From Sphingomonas sp. LR60 (lineage in GTDB: Bacteria; Pseudomonadota; Alphaproteobacteria; Sphingomonadales; Sphingomonadaceae): DNA of 64,000 bases. A model generated the notes under the pieces. That model did no database searches, was not told the DNA's origin, and saw only the letters and a program-made list of their open reading frames with translations. The DNA lies in NCBI RefSeq assembly GCF_036855935.1, contig NZ_JASPFK010000001.1, positions 1,986,501 to 2,050,500 on the forward strand, written 5' to 3'. The position numbers and the translations under genes were made by a program. The stretch's first letter is position 1; each line of letters begins with the position of its first letter. Below are positions 22,975 through 54,432 of this stretch, piece after piece.

Positions 22975-23325
22975 CTACCCCTGCTCCGCCAGCGAAAAGA
23001 TCCGCCGCGCCTCGACCCACTTCACCCCGGCATCGGCCCACGGCAAGCGGCGCTGGTAGGCGTCCATCTTCGCCTCCCACGCCTGCACGTCCGGGTCGGC
23101 CGCATCCGCCGCCGCCTTGGCTTCGGCATCGAAGGAAGCATCGGTCTCCATCACCATCACCAGCCGCCCGCCGGTGCGATAGATATCCATCGCCACGATC
23201 CCCGCCGCCCGGATGCTCGCAACGATCGGCGCCGGCACCGCGCCCGCGGCATGCCACGCCTCATAGGCAGCGACCGCCTCGGGCTCGTCGGCGATGTCGA
23301 CCAGCAGGACGTGGCGCTCGGTCAC
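22975..23325 (-). CDS. L-rhamnose/L-fucose mutarotase family protein
   Basis: A 116-aa protein of the RhaM-like mutarotase family (ferredoxin-like fold), which interconverts sugar anomers. Visible: AYEAWHAAGAVPAPIVASIRAAGIVAMDIYR and DPDVQAWEAKMDAYQRRLP. The GTG start at 23325 overlaps the stop of the hydrolase gene (GTGA). Last gene of the probable fucose operon; a similar mutarotase-like gene is found in other L-fucose loci. Confidence 0.85.
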   Translation of the reverse strand: MTERHVLLVDIADEPEAVAAYEAWHAAGAVPAPIVASIRAAGIVAMDIYRTGGRLVMVMETDASFDAEAKAAADAADPDVQAWEAKMDAYQRRLPWADAGVKWVEARRIFSLAEQG

Positions 23326-24167
23326 TGGCCGTACGCCACGACGGTCTGGCGCTGCTGCCCCAGCCCTTCGATCCCCAATTCCATCACATCGCCCGCCTTC
23401 AGGAACACCGGCGGCTTCTGCCCCATGCCGACGCCCGGCGGGGTGCCGGTCGAGATCACGTCGCCGGGCTGGAGCGACATGAACTGGCTGACATAGCTGA
23501 CGAGAAACGCCGGCTTGTAGACCATCGTCGACGTCGACCCGTCCTGGTAGCGATGGCCGTTGACCTCCAGCCACATGCCGAGCGCGGTCGGATCGGCGAC
23601 CTCGTCGCGCGTCACCAGCCACGGCCCGATCGGCCCGAACGTGTCGCACCCCTTGCCCTTGTCCCACGTGCCCTGGCGCTCGAGCTGGAATGCCCGCTCC
23701 GACACGTCGTTGATGACGCAATAGCCCGCGATGTGACGTTCGGCATCGGCCTCGTCGACATAGCGCGCTTCGGTCCCGATCACGATCCCCAGCTCGACTT
23801 CCCAGTCGGTCTTGGTCGAGCCCTTGGGGATCTCGACATAGTCGTCGGGGCCGATGATCGCGCTGGTCGCCTTGGTGAAGATCACCGGCTCGGTCGGCAC
23901 GCTGGCGCCGGTCTCGGCGGCATGGTCGGAGTAATTCAGCCCGATGCACAGGAACTTGCCGACCGCCCCGACGCACGGACCGTAGCGCTCGACCTCGACC
24001 ACCGGCAGCGTCGCCGGATCGATCGCCGCCAACCGCTCCAGCTCGGCCTCGCCCAGCGCCGCGCCCGCGATATCCGCGACATGCGCTGACAGGTCGCGGA
24101 CCTGCCCCTGCGCATCGACCATTCCCGGCTTCTCGGCGCCCGGCGCCCCGTAACGTACCAGCTTCAT
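23322..24167 (-). CDS. FAH-family hydrolase (probable 2,4-diketo-3-deoxy-L-fuconate hydrolase)
   Basis: Fumarylacetoacetate hydrolase-fold enzyme, 281 aa. The metal-binding Glu-x-Glu is in DWEVELGIVIG and an Asp follows in INDVSERAFQ. CIGLNYSDHAAE and GDVISTGTPPGVG are family hallmarks. In the oxidative L-fucose route such an enzyme cleaves 2,4-diketo-3-deoxy-L-fuconate to pyruvate and L-lactate. That assignment rests on the neighbouring SDR, dehydratase and mutarotase. Confidence 0.88.
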   Translation of the reverse strand: MKLVRYGAPGAEKPGMVDAQGQVRDLSAHVADIAGAALGEAELERLAAIDPATLPVVEVERYGPCVGAVGKFLCIGLNYSDHAAETGASVPTEPVIFTKATSAIIGPDDYVEIPKGSTKTDWEVELGIVIGTEARYVDEADAERHIAGYCVINDVSERAFQLERQGTWDKGKGCDTFGPIGPWLVTRDEVADPTALGMWLEVNGHRYQDGSTSTMVYKPAFLVSYVSQFMSLQPGDVISTGTPPGVGMGQKPPVFLKAGDVMELGIEGLGQQRQTVVAYGQ

Positions 24168-24177
24168 GCGCTTTTCC

Positions 24178-24909
24178 TCAGTTGACCCAGCCGCCATCGA
24201 TGACATGCACCGCACCGGTCGTGAACGCAGCGTCGTCGCTGCTCAGATAGGCGACCAATGCGGCAATCTCTTCCGCGCGCCCCAGCCGACCCATCGGCTG
24301 CCGCGCCACGAACGCCTGTTGCGCCGCCTCGTAGTCGCCGGTGTCGCGCAACCGTTGCTGCAGCGACGGCGTGTCGACCGTTCCGGGGCAGATCGCGTTG
24401 CAGCGGATGCCCTGCCCGACGAAATCGGCGGCGACTGCCTTGGTGATTCCGATCACCCCGGCCTTGGTCGCGGTATAGGCGAAGCGATTGGGGATGCCCT
24501 TCACCGAACTGGCGATCGACGACATGTTGACGATCGCCCCGCCACCCGCCGTCAGCATCCCCGGCAGCACCGCGCGGATCGTGCGCATCATCGCGGTCAT
24601 GTTGATCGCGATCGCCTGTTCCCATTCGGTATCGCTCAGGTCGAGGATCGTACCGGCGTGGACGATGCCTGCGATGTTCGCGAGCACGTCGATCCGACCG
24701 ATCTCGGCGACCAGCGCCGCGATCTGCGTCGCATCGGTGACGTCGAGCTGCCGCTGCTCGCACCCGTCCAGCCCCGCCAGCGCGCCCGGATCGACGTCGG
24801 TCGCGATCACCCGCGCGCCCTCGGCGGCATAGCGCAGCGCGGCGGCGCGCCCGATCCCGTTGCCCGCCGCGGTGATCAGCGCGACCTTGCCCTTCAACCG
24901 GCCTTCCAT
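24178..24909 (-). CDS. SDR oxidoreductase (probable 2-keto-3-deoxy-L-fuconate dehydrogenase)
   Basis: Classical short-chain dehydrogenase, 243 aa: TAAGNGIGR cofactor site, ANIAGIV in place of NNAG, catalytic Ser in NMSSIASSVKG, and YTATKAGVIG (YxxxK). The Asp after beta-2 (TDVD) favours NAD. The sequence style resembles the 2-keto-3-deoxy-L-fuconate dehydrogenase/DHRS6 branch. It starts 3 bases after the dehydratase stop. Confidence 0.88.
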   Translation of the reverse strand: MEGRLKGKVALITAAGNGIGRAAALRYAAEGARVIATDVDPGALAGLDGCEQRQLDVTDATQIAALVAEIGRIDVLANIAGIVHAGTILDLSDTEWEQAIAINMTAMMRTIRAVLPGMLTAGGGAIVNMSSIASSVKGIPNRFAYTATKAGVIGITKAVAADFVGQGIRCNAICPGTVDTPSLQQRLRDTGDYEAAQQAFVARQPMGRLGRAEEIAALVAYLSSDDAAFTTGAVHVIDGGWVN

Positions 24910-24912
24910 CGA

Positions 24913-26115
24913 TTAACTCCGTGCAGCGACCGGCAGGCATGCCGGCCCCACCGGGTCGAATGCCTTGTAGGTCAGGATGAATTCGCGGTGGCCCAGCGCC
25001 TCGGACACGCTCGGCTGCCCGGCGGCCACCGCCATGATCGCATCGACGATCTCCGCGCCGACCTCGTCGAGCGTCGCCTCGCCTTCGAGGATGCGCCCGG
25101 CGTTGATGTCCATGTCCGCCGCCAACCGCCGTGCCGTCTCCGGATTGGCGCAGATCTTGATGACCGGCGCGATCGCCGACCCGACTACCGATCCGCGCCC
25201 GGTGGTGAACAAGGTCAGGTGACACCCGCACGCGATCATTTCGACGATCTCGGCATTGTCGGAGATGTTCGGGAAACCGAACCGCGGCTCTCCGTCCGGC
25301 ACGACGTCGAGCAGATACAATCCGCCCGCCGGCGGCACGTCGCCGGGCTTGATGATCCCGCTGATCAGCGACGATCCCGATTTGGAATACGCCCCCATCG
25401 ACTTCTCTTCCTGGGTGGTCAGCCCACCCTCGGCATTGCCGGGTGCGAAGCTGCCGAAGCCCATGATCGTGTAATATTGCTCCGCCTTGCGGACGCAGGC
25501 CATGATCTCCTCGCCCAACTCGGGGGTCAGCGCGCGGTCGGCCATGATCCCCTCGCAGCCGACGAGCTCGCCGGTTTCCTCGAAGATGCAGGTCGCGCCG
25601 TCCGCCACCAGCTTGTCGAACGCGCGCCCGACCGCAGGATTGGCAGTGATGCCGCTGGTACCGTCCGACCCGCCGCAGATCGTTCCGACGATCAATTCGT
25701 CGACACGCATCGGCACGCGCGGCACGTCGGCGATCTGCGCCTTGACCCGCGCCACCGCCGCCAGCCCGGCAGCGATCGTCGCCGCGGTGCCGCCGGTCTG
25801 CTGGATGACATACAACTCGACCGGGCGGCCGCTATCCTCGATCACCTTGGTCAGCCGCTCGCGATCGAAGCTTTCGCAGCCCAGCGACACGATCACCACC
25901 CCACCGACATTCGGGTGCGTCGTCACCGCCTCCATCACCCGCGCCGCATAGGCATTGGGGTAGCAGCCGGGAAAGCCGATCAGATGCACGTCGGCGTCAT
26001 CGGCCTTGTCGACGATCTTGCGCGCCACATGATGCGCGCACTCGACCAGATACGCGACCGCGACGGTGTTGCGGATGCCCTTGCGCCCGTCGGCGCGCTG
26101 CCACGCCTCGATCAT
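24913..26115 (-). CDS. UxaA-family dehydratase, large domain (probable L-fuconate dehydratase)
   Basis: A 400-aa protein equivalent to the C-terminal catalytic part of altronate dehydratase UxaA. Markers are GRKGIRNTVAVAYLVECAHHVA, GCYPNAYAARVMEAVTTHPNVGGVVIVSLGCE, TICGGSDGTSGITANPAVGR and FEETGELVGCE, with cysteines and histidines that bind iron in the family. Related split UxaA genes occur in the Campylobacter L-fucose locus. The SAF domain normally paired with it is here fused to the upstream aldo/keto reductase, whose stop overlaps this ATG. The substrate is inferred. Confidence 0.86.
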   Translation of the reverse strand: MIEAWQRADGRKGIRNTVAVAYLVECAHHVARKIVDKADDADVHLIGFPGCYPNAYAARVMEAVTTHPNVGGVVIVSLGCESFDRERLTKVIEDSGRPVELYVIQQTGGTAATIAAGLAAVARVKAQIADVPRVPMRVDELIVGTICGGSDGTSGITANPAVGRAFDKLVADGATCIFEETGELVGCEGIMADRALTPELGEEIMACVRKAEQYYTIMGFGSFAPGNAEGGLTTQEEKSMGAYSKSGSSLISGIIKPGDVPPAGGLYLLDVVPDGEPRFGFPNISDNAEIVEMIACGCHLTLFTTGRGSVVGSAIAPVIKICANPETARRLAADMDINAGRILEGEATLDEVGAEIVDAIMAVAAGQPSVSEALGHREFILTYKAFDPVGPACLPVAARS

Positions 26116-27413
26116 GCGCGCTGCTCCGTCACGGTGCTGCGCGTATGGCTGGCGATATAGTCGCTCTTCATATTGTGCATATGGACCCATTGTCCGGCCG
26201 CCGCGGCGTCGGTCATCGACCCGATCGGCGCGCCATATTTGATGACCTTGTCGCCCGGCTTCAGTCCGGTACGCGCGATCTTGTGCCCGACCGTCACGCC
26301 CTCGCGCGCCGGGATCGTTCCGCCCGACACCGGCAACAGATCGCCCGCCGCTATCGGCGCGACGCAGATCATCACATTGTCGTCCGGGTGGAGCAGGATC
26401 AGTTGTTGCGGCGCGCGCGCCTCCAGCGCTGGCCACAGATCGTCGGGGATCGGCGCCGCGATCCGGGTGCGCAGATCGGCGACCTCCTGCGGATTGCCGA
26501 GCCCGGCCAGCACGCACGCCACCGCCGGATGCCGCAGCGGGAACTGGATCGCGGCGGCCGGCAGCGCCACGCCTGCGGTGTCGCAGGTCCTGGCCAGCGC
26601 GCGGGTCCGCTCCACCAGCGCGGAGGGCGGCGCGGCATAATCGTAATGCGACTGCGCCGGATCGGCCTCCCGCGGATCGCGCGCGAGGATGCCGCTGTTG
26701 TACGCGCCGCCGATAACGACGCGCACGCCTTGCGCATGGCATCGGTCGAGGAACGGCTTCGCGCTGCGATCGAGCAGCGTATAGCGCCCCGCAAGCAGGA
26801 TCACGTCGAGCGGCACCCGGTCGAGCAGCTCCTCGCAGACCGCGACCTCGTTGACGCCGACGCCGATCGCCCCGACCACGCCGGCCTCACGTAACGCCAC
26901 CATCGCCGCATAGCCGCCGTCGAGGAAGTCACGCAGGTGCCGTTCATGCGCCGCGCTATGCGTCAGCCGCCCGAGATCGTGCGCCAGCAGCACGTCGATC
27001 CGGTCGCGCTGCAACCGCGCGCAGCTCGCGTCGAACGAGCGCCGCACGCCGTCGGCGCTATAGTCGAACGCCGGCTCGAACGGATCGGCATCGACGAAAC
27101 CATGCCGCGTTCCCGCCGCCTCGGTCGGCACGAGCACGCGCCCGACCTTGGTGGAGATCGCGCTTACCCGCTCCGGATCAAGCCGCGCCAGCGCCGCGCC
27201 GAGCCGCCGCTCCGCAAGCCCGAAGCCGTAATGTGGCGCGGTGTCGAAATAACGGATGCCGGCATCCAGTGCGGCAGCCACCGTCGCCTCGGCAGTGGCG
27301 TCGTCGACCGCGCGATAGAGGTTGCCGATCGCCGCCGTCCCCATGCCGAACCGCGGCAGAATCTCGCCAGCCCGGTCGAGCGGCGACGAAGCGGGGGTCG
27401 AGTCTTGGATCAT
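26112..27413 (-). CDS. Fusion: aldo/keto reductase (L-fucose dehydrogenase-like) plus UxaA SAF domain
   Basis: A 433-aa fusion. Residues 1 to about 325 form an aldo/keto reductase barrel with the tetrad regions RYFDTAPHYGFGLAERRLG (Asp, Tyr), STKVGRVL (Lys) and DVLLAHDLG (His), like D-threo-aldose/L-fucose 1-dehydrogenases. Residues 330-433 (LILLHPDDNVMICVAPIAAGD to HMHNMKSDY) are the SAF domain that forms the small part of UxaA dehydratases. These are usually separate proteins. The junction (DLWPALEARAPQQLILLHPD) is clean and in frame, with no stop or new start. The product could bring the first oxidation and the dehydration step together. A deletion fusing two genes is the alternative to a selected fusion. 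Confidence 0.85.
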   Translation of the reverse strand: MIQDSTPASSPLDRAGEILPRFGMGTAAIGNLYRAVDDATAEATVAAALDAGIRYFDTAPHYGFGLAERRLGAALARLDPERVSAISTKVGRVLVPTEAAGTRHGFVDADPFEPAFDYSADGVRRSFDASCARLQRDRIDVLLAHDLGRLTHSAAHERHLRDFLDGGYAAMVALREAGVVGAIGVGVNEVAVCEELLDRVPLDVILLAGRYTLLDRSAKPFLDRCHAQGVRVVIGGAYNSGILARDPREADPAQSHYDYAAPPSALVERTRALARTCDTAGVALPAAAIQFPLRHPAVACVLAGLGNPQEVADLRTRIAAPIPDDLWPALEARAPQQLILLHPDDNVMICVAPIAAGDLLPVSGGTIPAREGVTVGHKIARTGLKPGDKVIKYGAPIGSMTDAAAAGQWVHMHNMKSDYIASHTRSTVTEQRA

Positions 27414-27492: not shown

Positions 27493-27509
27493 ATGAAAGA
27501 TGCTTTCAT
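27493..27509. promoter_or_regulatory. Probable IclR operator (palindrome)
   Basis: Perfect arms ATGAAAG and CTTTCAT separated by ATG lie between the divergent fucose operon and the IclR gene, with partly symmetric A/T-rich flanks. It is placed for autoregulation and control of the operon. The ATG inside the left arm could open the IclR frame but is rejected as a start. Confidence 0.6.
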
Positions 27510-27567
27510 TTGCGCGCGACCATCCCCGCTGGCGCCTTCCACCGCGCGAAGCTACGGTACGCCGACC

Positions 27568-28320
27568 ATGACCACTCCACCCCGCTACCAGGCCCCGGCG
27601 CTCAAGAAAGGGCTGGAGATCCTGGAACTGCTCGCCACCTCCGAACAGGCGCTGACGATGTCGGATATCTCCAGTGCGCTGGGCCGGTCGGTCGGCGAGA
27701 TATTTCGGATGCTGCAGGTGCTCGAGGAGCATCGCTACATCGCGCGCGACGATGAGGGATACCGCCTCACCAACCGGCTCTTCGCGCTCGGGATGGGCCG
27801 GCCGCCGGTCCGCGATCTGACCGTCACGGCGCTTCCGGTGATGCAGGGGCTTGCGCGTGCCACCGGGCAAAGCTGCCATCTGGCGGTTGCGTCAGGCGCG
27901 GAGATGGTGGTCATCGCCGGGGTCGAGGCGCCCCGGCTGTCGGGTTTCGCGGTGCGCGTCGGCTACCGCCGCCCGCTCCATCGCTCCAATTCGGGGCGCG
28001 TGCTGCTGGCGTTCCAGCCGCCGGCGATCCGGGCGGCGATGCTGGACGAGGTGCGTGAGGCCGGCGGCGACATCGATCCGGCGCTCGACGAACGGCTCGC
28101 CACGCTCGTCTCCGACGGGTACGCCGTCACCCCCAGCCCGATGCTGGAGGGGATCACCGATTTGTCCGCACCGGTCCTCGAACACGGCGCCGCGCGCGCC
28201 GCGCTGACCGTTCCGTTCGTCGCCGGGCGGGCGGCGCTCGTCTCGCTCGAGGAAACCCGCGCGCTGCTCCGCGAAGCCGTCCGCTCGATCAGCGCGCAGC
28301 TCCAGCCGACGGTCGACTAG
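27568..28320 (+). CDS. IclR-family transcription regulator of the fucose operon
   Basis: A 250-aa regulator. N-terminal winged HTH (ALKKGLEILELLATSEQALTMSDISSALGRSVGEIFRMLQVLE) is followed by the IclR effector domain (from about residue 95: SCHLAVASGAEMVVIAGVE, HRSNSGRVLLAF, DLSAPVLEHG). Start at 27568 (MTTPPRYQAP) because the longer frame would begin in the palindromic operator and encode an unlikely N terminus. Divergent from the five-gene operon it probably represses or activates. Confidence 0.88.
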   Translation: MTTPPRYQAPALKKGLEILELLATSEQALTMSDISSALGRSVGEIFRMLQVLEEHRYIARDDEGYRLTNRLFALGMGRPPVRDLTVTALPVMQGLARATGQSCHLAVASGAEMVVIAGVEAPRLSGFAVRVGYRRPLHRSNSGRVLLAFQPPAIRAAMLDEVREAGGDIDPALDERLATLVSDGYAVTPSPMLEGITDLSAPVLEHGAARAALTVPFVAGRAALVSLEETRALLREAVRSISAQLQPTVD

Positions 28321-28368: not shown

Positions 28369-33076
<4,708 letters not shown>

Positions 33077-44885: not shown

Positions 44886-45884
44886 TTACACCCCCGCCGT
44901 GATCGCCTTCAAATCGACGATCGGCCGGGCGCCGAAATGCTGGATCACCTCGGCTGCGCAGATCGCGCCGAGCGTCAGCGACGCCTCCAGCGACTTGCCC
45001 TGCGCCTGCCCGTGGAGGAAGCCCGCCGCGAACAGATCGCCCGCGCCGGTCGTGTCGACCACCTTGTCGATCGGCTGCGCCGGAACCACGACACGCTCAC
45101 CGCCAGCGACCGCCATCGCCCCGCGCTCGGCCAGCGTGACGACGACCAGCGGCACCTTTCCCTGCACCGCTGCGACCGCCGCATCGACCGTATCGGTCTG
45201 CGTCAGGAACATGATCTCGGTCTCATTGGCGAACAGCACGTCGATCAGCCCCTGATCGATCAGCGCGTGGAAGGCGTCACGGTGGCGGTCGATCACGAAC
45301 TCGGCCGACAGCGTGAAGGCGACCTTGCGCCCCGCCCCGCGCGCGATGTCGATCGCGGCGCGCATCGCGGCGCGCGGCTCTTCGGGGTCCCACAGATAGC
45401 CTTCAAGATACAGATAGCGCGCATCGGCGATCAGCCCGGCGTCCAGCGCCTCGGCCGGCAGATAGTGCGACGCGCCCAGGAACGTATTCATCGTGCGCTG
45501 CCCGTCGGGCGTCACGAAGATCAGGCAGCGGCCGGTCGTCGGTGCACCGGCGCGCGATGCCGTGTCGAACCGGATGCCCGCCGCGCGGATATCATGCGCG
45601 AACACCTCGCCGAGCTGATCGTCGGCGACCTGCCCGAGGAACGCGCACTGGCTGCCCAGCGCCGCCATCCCGGCGATCGTGTTCGCGGCCGACCCGCCCG
45701 AAACCTCCTGCCCCGGCCCCATCTTCGCATAAAGCGCGTCGGCTTCCTCCGGCGAGAAAACCAGCGCCATCGCGCCCTTGGTCATGCCGTTATCGGCGAT
45801 GAACGCGTCGGTAGCGGGCGAGAGGATGTCGACGATGGCATTGCCGATCGCGACCACGTCATAGCGGGGTTCGGTCAAGATCAC
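44886..45884 (-). CDS. PfkB-family kinase, adenosine kinase-like
   Basis: A 332-aa ribokinase-fold kinase. AIGNAIVDILSPATDAF at the N terminus, GGSAANTIAGMAALG (substrate site), and VDTTGAGDLFAAGFLHG with the GAGD anion hole and catalytic Asp. The style fits the adenosine kinase/sugar kinase branch of Alphaproteobacteria. Start is uncertain: GTG at 45884 or TTG at 45878, both after AGGA. Confidence 0.88.
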   Translation of the reverse strand: MILTEPRYDVVAIGNAIVDILSPATDAFIADNGMTKGAMALVFSPEEADALYAKMGPGQEVSGGSAANTIAGMAALGSQCAFLGQVADDQLGEVFAHDIRAAGIRFDTASRAGAPTTGRCLIFVTPDGQRTMNTFLGASHYLPAEALDAGLIADARYLYLEGYLWDPEEPRAAMRAAIDIARGAGRKVAFTLSAEFVIDRHRDAFHALIDQGLIDVLFANETEIMFLTQTDTVDAAVAAVQGKVPLVVVTLAERGAMAVAGGERVVVPAQPIDKVVDTTGAGDLFAAGFLHGQAQGKSLEASLTLGAICAAEVIQHFGARPIVDLKAITAGV

Positions 45885-45965
45885 GGTTCCTGGCAGCGGG
45901 GAAAGCGCCCGACTAGAGCGCGGTCGCGGCTTGCGCAACGGCCAAGCGAGGCGCATCGCACGACG

Positions 45966-46634
45966 ATGGTGCGCGCATTCTGGCTTTCGGTGCAGCAACT
46001 CGGCGACCCTGCGATCCTGCGCGTGCTCGCCCTGTCGCTGGCGATCACGCTCGGTGTCTTCGTCGTGCTGGGCGCGGGCGCGTGGTGGTTGATCGACACC
46101 GCGCTGAATGGCGTGAGCTGGCATGGGACGCTTGCCGGAGTAGCGGCCACGGCGCTGACGTTGCTCGGCGGATGGCTGCTGTTCCGCGCGGTGGCGATGC
46201 TGGTCGTCGGACTGTTCGCCGACACGATCGTCGAGGCGGTCGAGCGGCGGCATTATCCGCAGGCGTTGACCAGCGCGCACGCCGTATCGCTGGCGCGCGG
46301 ATTGCGGATGGGGCTCGCGTCGGCCGCACGGTTCATCGCGGTCAACCTGCTCGCCGCGCCGGTGTATATCGGATTGCTCGTCACCGGCGTCGGCACCGCG
46401 GCAGCCTTCTTCGTCGTCAATGGCTGGCTGCTTGGCCGCGATCTCGGCGAAATGGTCGCGGCGCGTCATCTGCCGGCTGCGGCGATGCGAGACTGGCGCG
46501 CGGCGACCGCCGGTCGGCGCTTCGCGCTGGGGCTTGCCGCGACCGGGCTGTTCGTGGTTCCGCTCCTCAACATCCTCGCGCCCGTGCTGGGCGCGGCGAT
46601 GGCGACGCACCTATTCCACGGAACCCGCCGATGA
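45966..46634 (+). CDS. EI24/CysZ-like membrane protein
   Basis: A 222-aa protein with about four to six hydrophobic helices (LALSLAITLGVFVVLGAGAWWLI, LAPVLGAAMATHLF) and the EI24 domain pattern RRHYPQALT then MGLASAARFIAVNLLA and GRDLGEMVAARH. The family includes the sulfate importer CysZ. ATG at 45966, directly divergent from the kinase. It overlaps the next gene by four bases. Confidence 0.83.
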   Translation: MVRAFWLSVQQLGDPAILRVLALSLAITLGVFVVLGAGAWWLIDTALNGVSWHGTLAGVAATALTLLGGWLLFRAVAMLVVGLFADTIVEAVERRHYPQALTSAHAVSLARGLRMGLASAARFIAVNLLAAPVYIGLLVTGVGTAAAFFVVNGWLLGRDLGEMVAARHLPAAAMRDWRAATAGRRFALGLAATGLFVVPLLNILAPVLGAAMATHLFHGTRR

Positions 46635-52245: not shown

Positions 52246-54432
52246 ATGAAGACGTTCACAGGCGGCCTGCTGGCAGCAGCGGGCCTGTCGCTCGCATCGA
52301 CCGTTCACGGCGCGCTGCCTGGCGCCATCGGCGTACCTGTCGGATCGCCCGCACCGGACGCGACCGGGCAGGAGGTCGTCGTCACCGGCCGCGCTTCTCC
52401 CGCTCCGAAGGCCGCGGATGACCGCTACAAGCCGACACCCGACGCCTCGACGTTGCGCAGTGCCGCCGATCCGCTCGACACACCGCAAACGGTCAACATC
52501 GTCCCCGCGCAGGCGATCCGCGACCAGCGCCCGCGCTACCTCGACGATGTGCTGACCAACGTCAGCGGCATCACGCAAGGCAACACGTTGGCGGCGACGC
52601 AAGACACCGTGCTCAAGCGGGGCTTCGGCGGCAATCGCGACGGATCGGTGATGCACAACGGAATGCCGCTGGTGCAGGGACGCGCGTTCAACGCCGCAAC
52701 GCAAAGCGTCGAGGTGCTGAAAGGCCCGGTGTCGCTGCTCTACGGCATCATGGATCCGGGCGGGGTCATCAACATCGTCTCGAAGAAACCGCTGCTTGAC
52801 CCGCAATTGACCGTCGCGCTGACCGGATCGAGCTATGCGGCGGCGCGCAGCGGCCTGGAGGCGATGGCCGACCTGACCGGCGCGATCGCCGGCGATCTCG
52901 CTGCGCGGCTGGTGCTCGATCATCAGGACGAGGACTATTGGCGCAATTACGGCACCCGTCGCGACACGCTGATCGCCCCGTCGCTCGGCTGGTACGGGGC
53001 GGCGACCCAGGCGGTGCTCTGGTACGAATATCGCCGCTTCGATTATCCGTTCGACCGCGGCACCGCGCTCGATCCGCGCACTATGCAGCCGCTGGCGGTG
53101 CCGCGCCGCCGCCGGCTCGACGATCCCAACAACCGGATGACCGGCGACAGCCACCTCGTCCAGCTCGCGCTCGATCATCGGCTGGGCGGCGGATGGGCAG
53201 CGCATCTCGCCGCCAGCCTCAACAGCGAGCGCTACGACGCCGGGCAGTTGCGAGTCACCGGCGTCAACGTCCAGCGCGGCACGTTGACGCGCAGCAACGA
53301 CGCCACGCTCGGCGCGCTGAGCACCGACGCCTATCTCCAGACCTATATCGACGGCGGCTTCGACGTGGCAGGAACACGCCACGCCGTCATCTTCGGCGCA
53401 GAGGGCGAATACCGCCGTTACTACCGCCGCGACCTGATCCGTCAGGCGGTGCGGAACACGTTCAGCTATCTGGCCCCGCTCTATGGCCGCGAGCCGTTCC
53501 CGACCAGCGTCTCCGCGACCGACAGCGACCAGACCGATCGTCTCTACAACTATTCGCTGTTCGGGCAGGATTCGATCCACGTCGGTGAACGCTGAACCCT
53601 CGTCGCTGGCGGGCGGCTGATCGGCTTCGACCAGCGCGCCGGGCGCGGACGTCCGTTCGTCGCCAACACCGATCTGACCGGATGGGCGTTCGTCCCGCAG
53701 GCCGGGCTGGTGTGGCGCGCCGCACGGACCTTCTCGCTGTACGGCAGCTACACGCGCTCGCTCAAGCCGACCTCGACGATCGCGCCGCTGGCGAGCGGGG
53801 TCACCATCACCTCCGCCGTCGCGCCGGAACGCGGCCGATCGTTCGAGCTGGGCGCCAAGCTCGACATTCCCGATCGCATCACGGGCACGCTGGCGCTCTA
53901 CGATATCGACAAGCGCAACGTGCTGGTGTCGCAGTTCAATTCCGTCACCGCGCTGACCGACTATCGCACCGCCGGCCGCGCCACCTCACGCGGCGTGGAG
54001 CTGGATCTCGCCGGACAGATTACCCGCACGCTGAACCTGATCGCCAGCTACGCCTATACGAAGGCGCGCACGGTCGACGACCCCGTGTTCGCTGGCAAAC
54101 GGCTGGCGAACGTCGCGCCGCATACCGCCTCGCTGTCGGCCGCCTATGACGTGGGTGCGCTCGCGGGCGACGACCGGCTGCGGCTCGGTGCCGGCGGCCG
54201 CTATGTCGCACGCCGGCCCGGCGACAGCGCCAACAGCTTCTGGCTGGCCGACTATGTCGTTGCCGATGCGTTCGTCACCTATGACACACGACTGGCCGGG
54301 CGCCGGGTGACGCTCCAGTTCAACCTGAAGAACATCTTCGACAAGACCTATTACACCTCGGCGGTGAACCCGTACGGCGTCGCCATCGGTGACCCGCGAC
54401 GCGCGATCGGGACGCTGGCGTTCGCCTTCTGA
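52246..54432 (+). pseudogene. TonB-dependent siderophore receptor with in-frame TGA
   Basis: One frame of 729 codons encodes a signal peptide, plug and barrel. The plug has ATGQEVVVTGRASPAPK (TonB box region), LDTPQTVNIVPAQAIRDQRP, LDDVLTNVSGITQGN and LKGPVSLLYGIMDPGGVINIVSKKP. The barrel ends FNLKNIFDKTYYTSA ... IGTLAFAF with a terminal Phe. A TGA at 53593-53595 interrupts it. The expected protein reads VGER-W-TLVAGGRL, so TGG (Trp) appears changed to TGA. Frame and family similarity continue unbroken past it. A single-base read error or a recent nonsense mutation both explain this. Confidence 0.9.

Follow-up and report, generated by a model that had tools for sequence, protein, structure and literature searches.

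The window, which is the whole 64,000-nucleotide stretch of Sphingomonas sp. LR60 analysed here, contains a gene in which an aldo/keto reductase (AKR) is fused in frame to the SAF domain of an altronate-type dehydratase. Judged by its sequence, the fusion is real, inherited, and constrained, and it joins known parts in a domain arrangement that is new. The polypeptide would combine an aldose (most likely L-fucose) 1-dehydrogenase barrel with a C-terminal SAF domain that serves as the small subunit in a split L-fuconate dehydratase of UxaA/GarD type, a reading to which we assign a probability of about 0.77. The SAF subunit would tether the first step of the L-fucose pathway to the third, which is the most likely interpretation and is well founded in the gene content. 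We infer the substrate, the pairing of the SAF domain with the large subunit, and the complex between them from the gene sequences. The parts of the fusion and its partner gene are as follows.

26112..27413, minus strand: AKR-SAF fusion gene, 433 amino acids (aa); open frame without internal stop, with PF00248 and an altronate/galactarate dehydratase N-terminal domain (residues ~337-418)
26433..27413, minus strand: aldo/keto reductase domain, residues 1-327, predicted L-fucose/aldose 1-dehydrogenase; Shine-Dalgarno (SD) sequence GAGAGGAAG 5' of the ATG
26403..26435, minus strand: junction W327-Q337, without ATG or GTG at the old SAF start; in the DNA as read, the W327 codon to the D345 codon is 51 nucleotides (nt), in frame
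26115..26405, minus strand: SAF domain, residues 337-433, putative dehydratase small subunit; 3k3s, TIGR03248, PF08666, and modelled beta strands
24913..26115, minus strand: UxaA-type dehydratase large subunit, 400 aa; PF04295 98.6 bits, PF20629 272.5 bits, galactarate dehydratase 6u7l E 1.1e-43; ATGA overlap with the fusion

The fusion is encoded by one uninterrupted frame that runs from the ATG at 27413 to the TGA at 26112-26114, in agreement with the strand, position, and 433 codons given in the initial annotation. The junction had been expected between 26400 and 26440, and it lies between the W327 codon (26433-26435) and the Q337 codon (26403-26405); re-reading of its DNA found no stop codon. 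PF00248 matches residues 23-331 with 129 bits in a Pfam profile search, and both the barrel profile and the fold place the protein in the AKR superfamily. Residues 339-416 resemble the N-terminus of the galactarate dehydratase model TIGR03248 (a partial match, 29.3 bits, E 2.9e-7), and the SAF part matches altronate hydrolase 3k3s (E 3.6e-14). These matches bear out the original description of an AKR barrel joined in frame to an altronate-type SAF domain. The predicted structure of the single chain has the AKR fold up to residue 334 and the beta strands of SAF at 347-399. In fold searches with this model the matches were filled by AKR barrels, and the nearest solved folds were L-galactose dehydrogenases. 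D57, Y62, K89, and H145, which at these positions we take to be the AKR catalytic Asp-Tyr-Lys-His tetrad, do not vary in any of 38 loci, whether fused or separate, and neither do the SAF residues G376, H377, K378, H411, H413, and N414.

The large part of the dehydratase appears to be supplied by the next gene, which overlaps the fusion by four bases (ATGA at 26112-26115), as was first noted. A Pfam scan finds the large-part domains GD_AH_second and GD_AH_C in this gene and no SAF domain, and an own-genome search shows it to be single-copy. Four iron-binding cysteines have been proposed for the UxaA/GarD superfamily in the available text of PMC6336799. Eight cysteines of the large subunit, not mapped to the numbering of that paper, are cysteine in all rows that have a letter there (37 or 38 rows). 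When aligned to GarD 6u7l, the SAF domain covers residues 19-90 and the large part covers 124-505. This layout suggests that the barrel can be attached to the N-terminus of SAF with the SAF C-terminus left facing the large subunit.

Both domains of the fusion are conserved, and the fused SAF domain is the only one found in the genomes searched for it. Within the clade of the window, the ratio of nonsynonymous to synonymous substitution rates (dN/dS) is 0.15 for the AKR part and 0.17 for SAF (7 gap-free sequences, 21 pairs). The same pairs give 0.22 for the junction, a rough value from only 14 codons, and the large subunit has 0.05 (5 sequences, 10 pairs). No second SAF copy was found at E up to 0.01 in any of the eight searched genomes of the clade (the ninth, G020, is 79% complete and was left out). 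The dehydratase, if it needs SAF, must therefore use the one borne by the dehydrogenase. The physical coupling of oxidation and dehydration parts that the initial annotation foresaw is supported, in that both parts are carried on one open frame. Fusion residues 2-18 (window 27360-27410) have a dN/dS of 1.24, indicating little constraint, though the start has a conserved strong SD sequence in the clade.

The fusion is no accident or assembly error, because full-length stop-free fusions recur in two genera. A search for the same architecture in other sphingomonads, proposed at the outset, recovered it repeatedly. With the full fusion as query, 13 of 295 genomes of the genus of the window, its own included, have such fusions. 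They hold 14 fused copies, the 13 others being 69-91% identical to that of the window; among the matches listed for this genus, the next best after the fusions cover the reductase only. In the genus of Sphingobium scionense (94 genomes, E up to 1e-90) 19 are fused, and five match by the reductase part alone at 65-66%. Novosphingobium rosa is fused too, and the overall tally is 34 fused loci in 33 genomes. One of the genomes, G324, carries two diverged fused operons (L072 and L073), each with FucP and lactonase homologues.

Wider samples yielded few or no further fusions. An order sample (396 genomes, E up to 1e-112) has the fusion in three genomes, counting the window's own, and a phylum sample (398 genomes, E up to 1e-72) has none besides the window's own; only close sequences are reachable at this threshold, and distant independent fusions are possible. 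The best 79 loci of 208 relatives from a GTDB scan comprise 24 fused loci, 8 with a separate neighbouring SAF gene, and 47 without an adjacent SAF found, four of these being unscored with the match outside the position limits. L084 also lies outside the limits and was counted as fused from the same locus, L068. No fusion outside the order was found among these 79 loci, in a search that reaches only near this sequence. Literature searches, confined to open-licence papers, turned up no published AKR-SAF fusion. The initial annotation would have been overturned by homologues that always keep two genes. Fusions recur, but loci not belonging to the fused group do keep two genes, and these have the four-base overlap in all eight loci of the order that lie outside the split Sphingobium group described below.

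Separate genes in related genomes are close in form to the fusion, and the linker of the fused loci has changed length repeatedly. In the separate loci of the order outside a split Sphingobium group (L074, L075, L108-L112, and L162), the reductase and SAF frames are in register 2 mod 3 in 8 of 8 cases. That register fits a four-base stop/start overlap; ATGA was read in seven of the loci, and L162 is placed by annotation. Since the separate genes mostly overlap by four bases, one small insertion or deletion (indel) in the reductase tail would merge them. In the two Gilvimarinus loci, the reductase and SAF genes do not adjoin, and their registers differ from this one. The codon distance from W327 to D345 takes eight distinct values in the 34 fused loci, 51-96 nt and all multiples of three, an in-frame distance being what defines a locus as fused. 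These lengths come from 29 loci and six further rows, one of them from a genome already counted, and their variety is what points to repeated changes of the linker. Only one close group is out of frame, namely the five split genomes of the Sphingobium group (L107 and L164-L167). Their parts are separate genes that overlap by 8 bases, in a register (94 nt, 1 mod 3) that the other separate loci of the order do not show, and the order of reductase, SAF, and large-subunit genes is kept.

The fused and split-Sphingobium rows form one group in a tree of AKR, SAF, and UxaA combined, with support of 92/91, below the starred level (49 rows, 815 columns; L171 is identical to L097, and L161 was left out). 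The split five (100/100) are sister to the 19 fused Sphingobium rows (97/97). An earlier tree left S. scionense unresolved among the fused Sphingobium rows, and the addition of four split genomes gave the sister placement. A single clade of fused loci without the split group was rejected by the approximately unbiased (AU) test (p-AU 0.0003). One fusion followed by one re-split and two independent fusions take two changes each. The register changes (2->0->1 versus 2->0 twice plus 2->1) mildly favour one fusion with a re-split, which is not claimed here. S. parapaucimobilis L162:9277-10512 is on a very long branch (1.89) and may represent another subfamily or partial matched pieces.

The neighbouring genes are consistent with a non-phosphorylating L-fucose pathway. 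As described in the available part of PMC11199699, this route uses a mutarotase, L-fucose dehydrogenase, lactonase, L-fuconate dehydratase, SDR, and FAH hydrolase to produce pyruvate and L-lactate. The genes on both sides of the fusion and large-subunit pair are the following.

22975..23325, minus strand: rhaM-family mutarotase; PF05336 77.3 bits, GTGA overlap with the FAH gene
23322..24215, minus strand: FAH-family hydrolase, candidate 2,4-diketo-3-deoxy-L-fuconate hydrolase; PF01557
24178..24909, minus strand: SDR dehydrogenase, candidate 2-keto-3-deoxy-L-fuconate 4-dehydrogenase (FucF type); PF13561/PF00106 and operon position
27493..28320, plus strand: IclR regulator, divergent from the fusion; PF01614, PF09339
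28369..29763, minus strand: Sugar_tr MFS transporter; PF00083 334 bits, synteny
29462..33076, plus strand: GH2 beta-galactosidase (mechanical open reading frame, true start later); PF02836 and others, synteny

The FAH-family gene scores 422 bits with NF053535 (2,4-didehydro-3-deoxy-L-rhamnonate hydrolase), under the cut-off of 500, and its likelier start is the ATG at 24167, after an SD sequence. The unfused plasmid operon of S. parapaucimobilis is annotated with fucP, an SDR gene, an amidohydrolase, an aldo/keto reductase, and small and large UxaA-family genes, and a mutarotase, a zinc alcohol dehydrogenase, and an IclR gene are nearby. Further separate homologues have FucP and an amidohydrolase upstream. 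FucP homologues are also upstream of 16 of the 19 fused loci outside the clade of the window. The L-fucose setting named in the initial annotation is upheld by FucP beside many relatives and by the mutarotase, SDR, and FAH hydrolase genes.

Several observations weigh against the proposed role. FucP was not found within the examined flanks of the window's clade, including the window's own operon, and L-fucose is put forward as the probable substrate from gene context alone. The PF08666 (SAF) match of the window fusion is below the curated cut-off (20.0 versus 21 bits) and went unreported here in the own-genome scan. Among four homologues, three separate ones pass (23.6, 21.4, and 33.3) and the fused L086 fails (18.9). 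The name SAF rests on the altronate and galactarate dehydratase matches because PF08666 is sub-threshold. The C-terminal 21 residues, which are expected to meet the large subunit, have a predicted local distance difference test score (pLDDT) below 50 in the single-chain model. Finally, the split five indicate that the fusion is not needed for the pathway.

The alternative that survives best, with about an even chance of being correct, is that the fusion is a by-product of gene overlap. A fixed ratio and co-expression would then suffice, and the closeness of the active sites would bring no gain. Apart from the split group, all separate loci of the order are one indel away from fusion, the split five manage without it, and the window genome has a candidate lactonase in trans. 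On the other side, the fusion has been retained through many changes of linker length, and the internal start has been lost in 13 of 34 junctions. This suggests that the joined form is at least well tolerated, and the by-product explanation remains plausible.

It is unlikely, though a serious minority view, that the operon serves a sugar of like configuration, such as D-arabinose or L-galactose, and not L-fucose. The solved folds nearest to the model are enzymes for L-galactose, and the available text of PMC6336799 describes one AKR that uses D-arabinose, L-fucose, and L-galactose. In the clade of the window, the Sugar_tr porter and GH2 beta-galactosidase stand in place of FucP; they adjoin the operon in eight of nine loci, the ninth contig ending earlier. 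The distribution of FucP outside this clade and the annotated fucP in S. parapaucimobilis argue instead for L-fucose, and the SDR and FAH genes agree with the L-fucose route as outlined in PMC11199699.

Less probable still is a dual output in many of the fused species, with a free SAF protein started inside the frame in addition to the fusion. The old SAF start has an in-frame ATG in 19 of the 34 fused junctions and GTG in two; neither is present in 13. L098 (4900-4970) keeps AAGGAG and an ATG with good spacing at this site. However, the window and the eight other fused loci of its clade, which have the shortest linkers, lack ATG and GTG there. Of the 14 internal sites scored, 10 pair only weakly with the anti-SD sequence (-3 kcal/mol or weaker), but four of six true SAF starts in separate loci are equally weak, so this is poor evidence.

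A bold but testable idea, which we consider doubtful, is that the fusion channels unstable L-fuconolactone or L-fuconate towards the dehydratase and makes the lactonase dispensable. A lactonase-like amidohydrolase is beside the reductase in 4 of 28 fused loci and in 7 of 10 separate loci. It was absent beside the other 24 fused and 3 separate loci within the examined flanks, which are usually 4-8 kb (1.2 kb upstream in L084), presence and absence being coded by hand. A test for a link between lactonase loss and fusion was not significant; the pattern is strongly clustered on the tree, and its two independent contrast pairs are too few. The idea is also weakened by the four fused loci (in three genomes) that keep the lactonase and by the three separate loci that lack it. 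Moreover, a lactonase homologue is somewhere in all 34 genomes searched, with 38-41% identity in the window's clade and 48% in one of its genomes.

The candidate lactonase of the window genome shares 38% identity with its S. scionense counterpart and 25% with the S. parapaucimobilis one. It belongs to a second sugar cluster, L163:6107-10153 (G000:C1:1868106-1872152), which has an amidohydrolase, an IclR gene, a FucP homologue, and a zinc alcohol dehydrogenase. The FucP homologue is 71% identical to that of S. parapaucimobilis, and the identities are 63% for the zinc alcohol dehydrogenase and 58% for the IclR regulator. The second cluster may be the half of the L-fucose pathway, for transport and lactone hydrolysis, that the fusion operon lacks, and with the candidate lactonase beside a FucP homologue, the pathway of the window genome may be split over two loci. 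The gene content thus does not call for lactone channelling.

Two further explanations can be dismissed, namely that the frame is a misassembly or that a deletion recently made it in a locus under decay, the latter close to the merging deletion that the initial annotation gave as its alternative: no supporting points were found, many genomes share the arrangement (several of them in two or three contigs; 19 of 94 in another genus), and dN/dS is well below 1 in both domains.

The proposed tether of dehydrogenase and dehydratase differs from known systems in where the SAF domain is placed. UxaA has SAF and its large part on one chain. The structures of UxaA and GarD (3k3s, 3laz, and 6u7l) have SAF and large domains of the same families as here; in GarD they are one chain, whereas here there are two chains and SAF is on another enzyme. 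The AKR L-galactose and L-fucose dehydrogenases (7smi, 9w6y, 7ezi, and 8scc) share the barrel fold and sequence family with the fusion, but they have 324-362 aa and align in sequence to the barrel only, while here SAF begins about ten residues past W327. The small subunit of sulfolactate sulfo-lyase SuyAB is not known to have an extra enzyme attached. A 2019 paper in Molecular Microbiology, reportedly on enzymes of the altronate dehydratase family in L-fucose pathways, may contain related data. From gene context, PMC6336799 deduces an L-fuconate dehydratase of the UxaA superfamily that is heteromeric. The same source gives Paraburkholderia mimosarum A19U_RS0100650/RS0100655 as a two-gene dehydratase in an L-fucose cluster, like the one here, and SuyAB as a heteromeric superfamily member with another substrate. 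In our own reading, the small P. mimosarum gene is the SAF part. There the small subunit would be a free protein, whereas here SAF is the C-terminal domain of the pathway dehydrogenase and has no other copy in the eight genomes of the clade searched.

The fusion would be a natural joining of enzymes for non-consecutive steps (1 and 3), brought about by the transfer of a subunit from its own enzyme to a different one. The close fused and unfused relatives are matched sets that can test whether fusion buys channelling, a fixed ratio, or nothing. AKR-SAF proteins could easily be annotated as plain aldo/keto reductases, and the dehydratase would then seem to be without its SAF part. A further proposal, speculative and rather improbable, is a new kind of composite enzyme, a split dehydratase with the pathway dehydrogenase as its small subunit, in which every dehydratase is assembled as a dehydrogenase-dehydratase complex. 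Such a complex may pass on L-fuconolactone or L-fuconate and relax the need for a lactonase in the operon. If this is true, the stages by which it came about would still be visible among the sphingomonads: overlapping genes, a fusion with an internal start, an obligate fusion, and perhaps a reversal.

Two other genes in the window have unusual structures. The 574-codon frame at 44886-46610 (minus strand) has a PfkB kinase domain in its C-terminal half only (residues 301-563), and at E up to 1e-5 no Pfam family matches the N-terminal half. A TonB-dependent receptor gene at 52246-54432 (plus strand) appears to be broken, as codon 450 of its 729 is a stop, the only internal one. Its pieces are in one frame, with the plug domain at 52246-53595 and the barrel end at 53710-54432.

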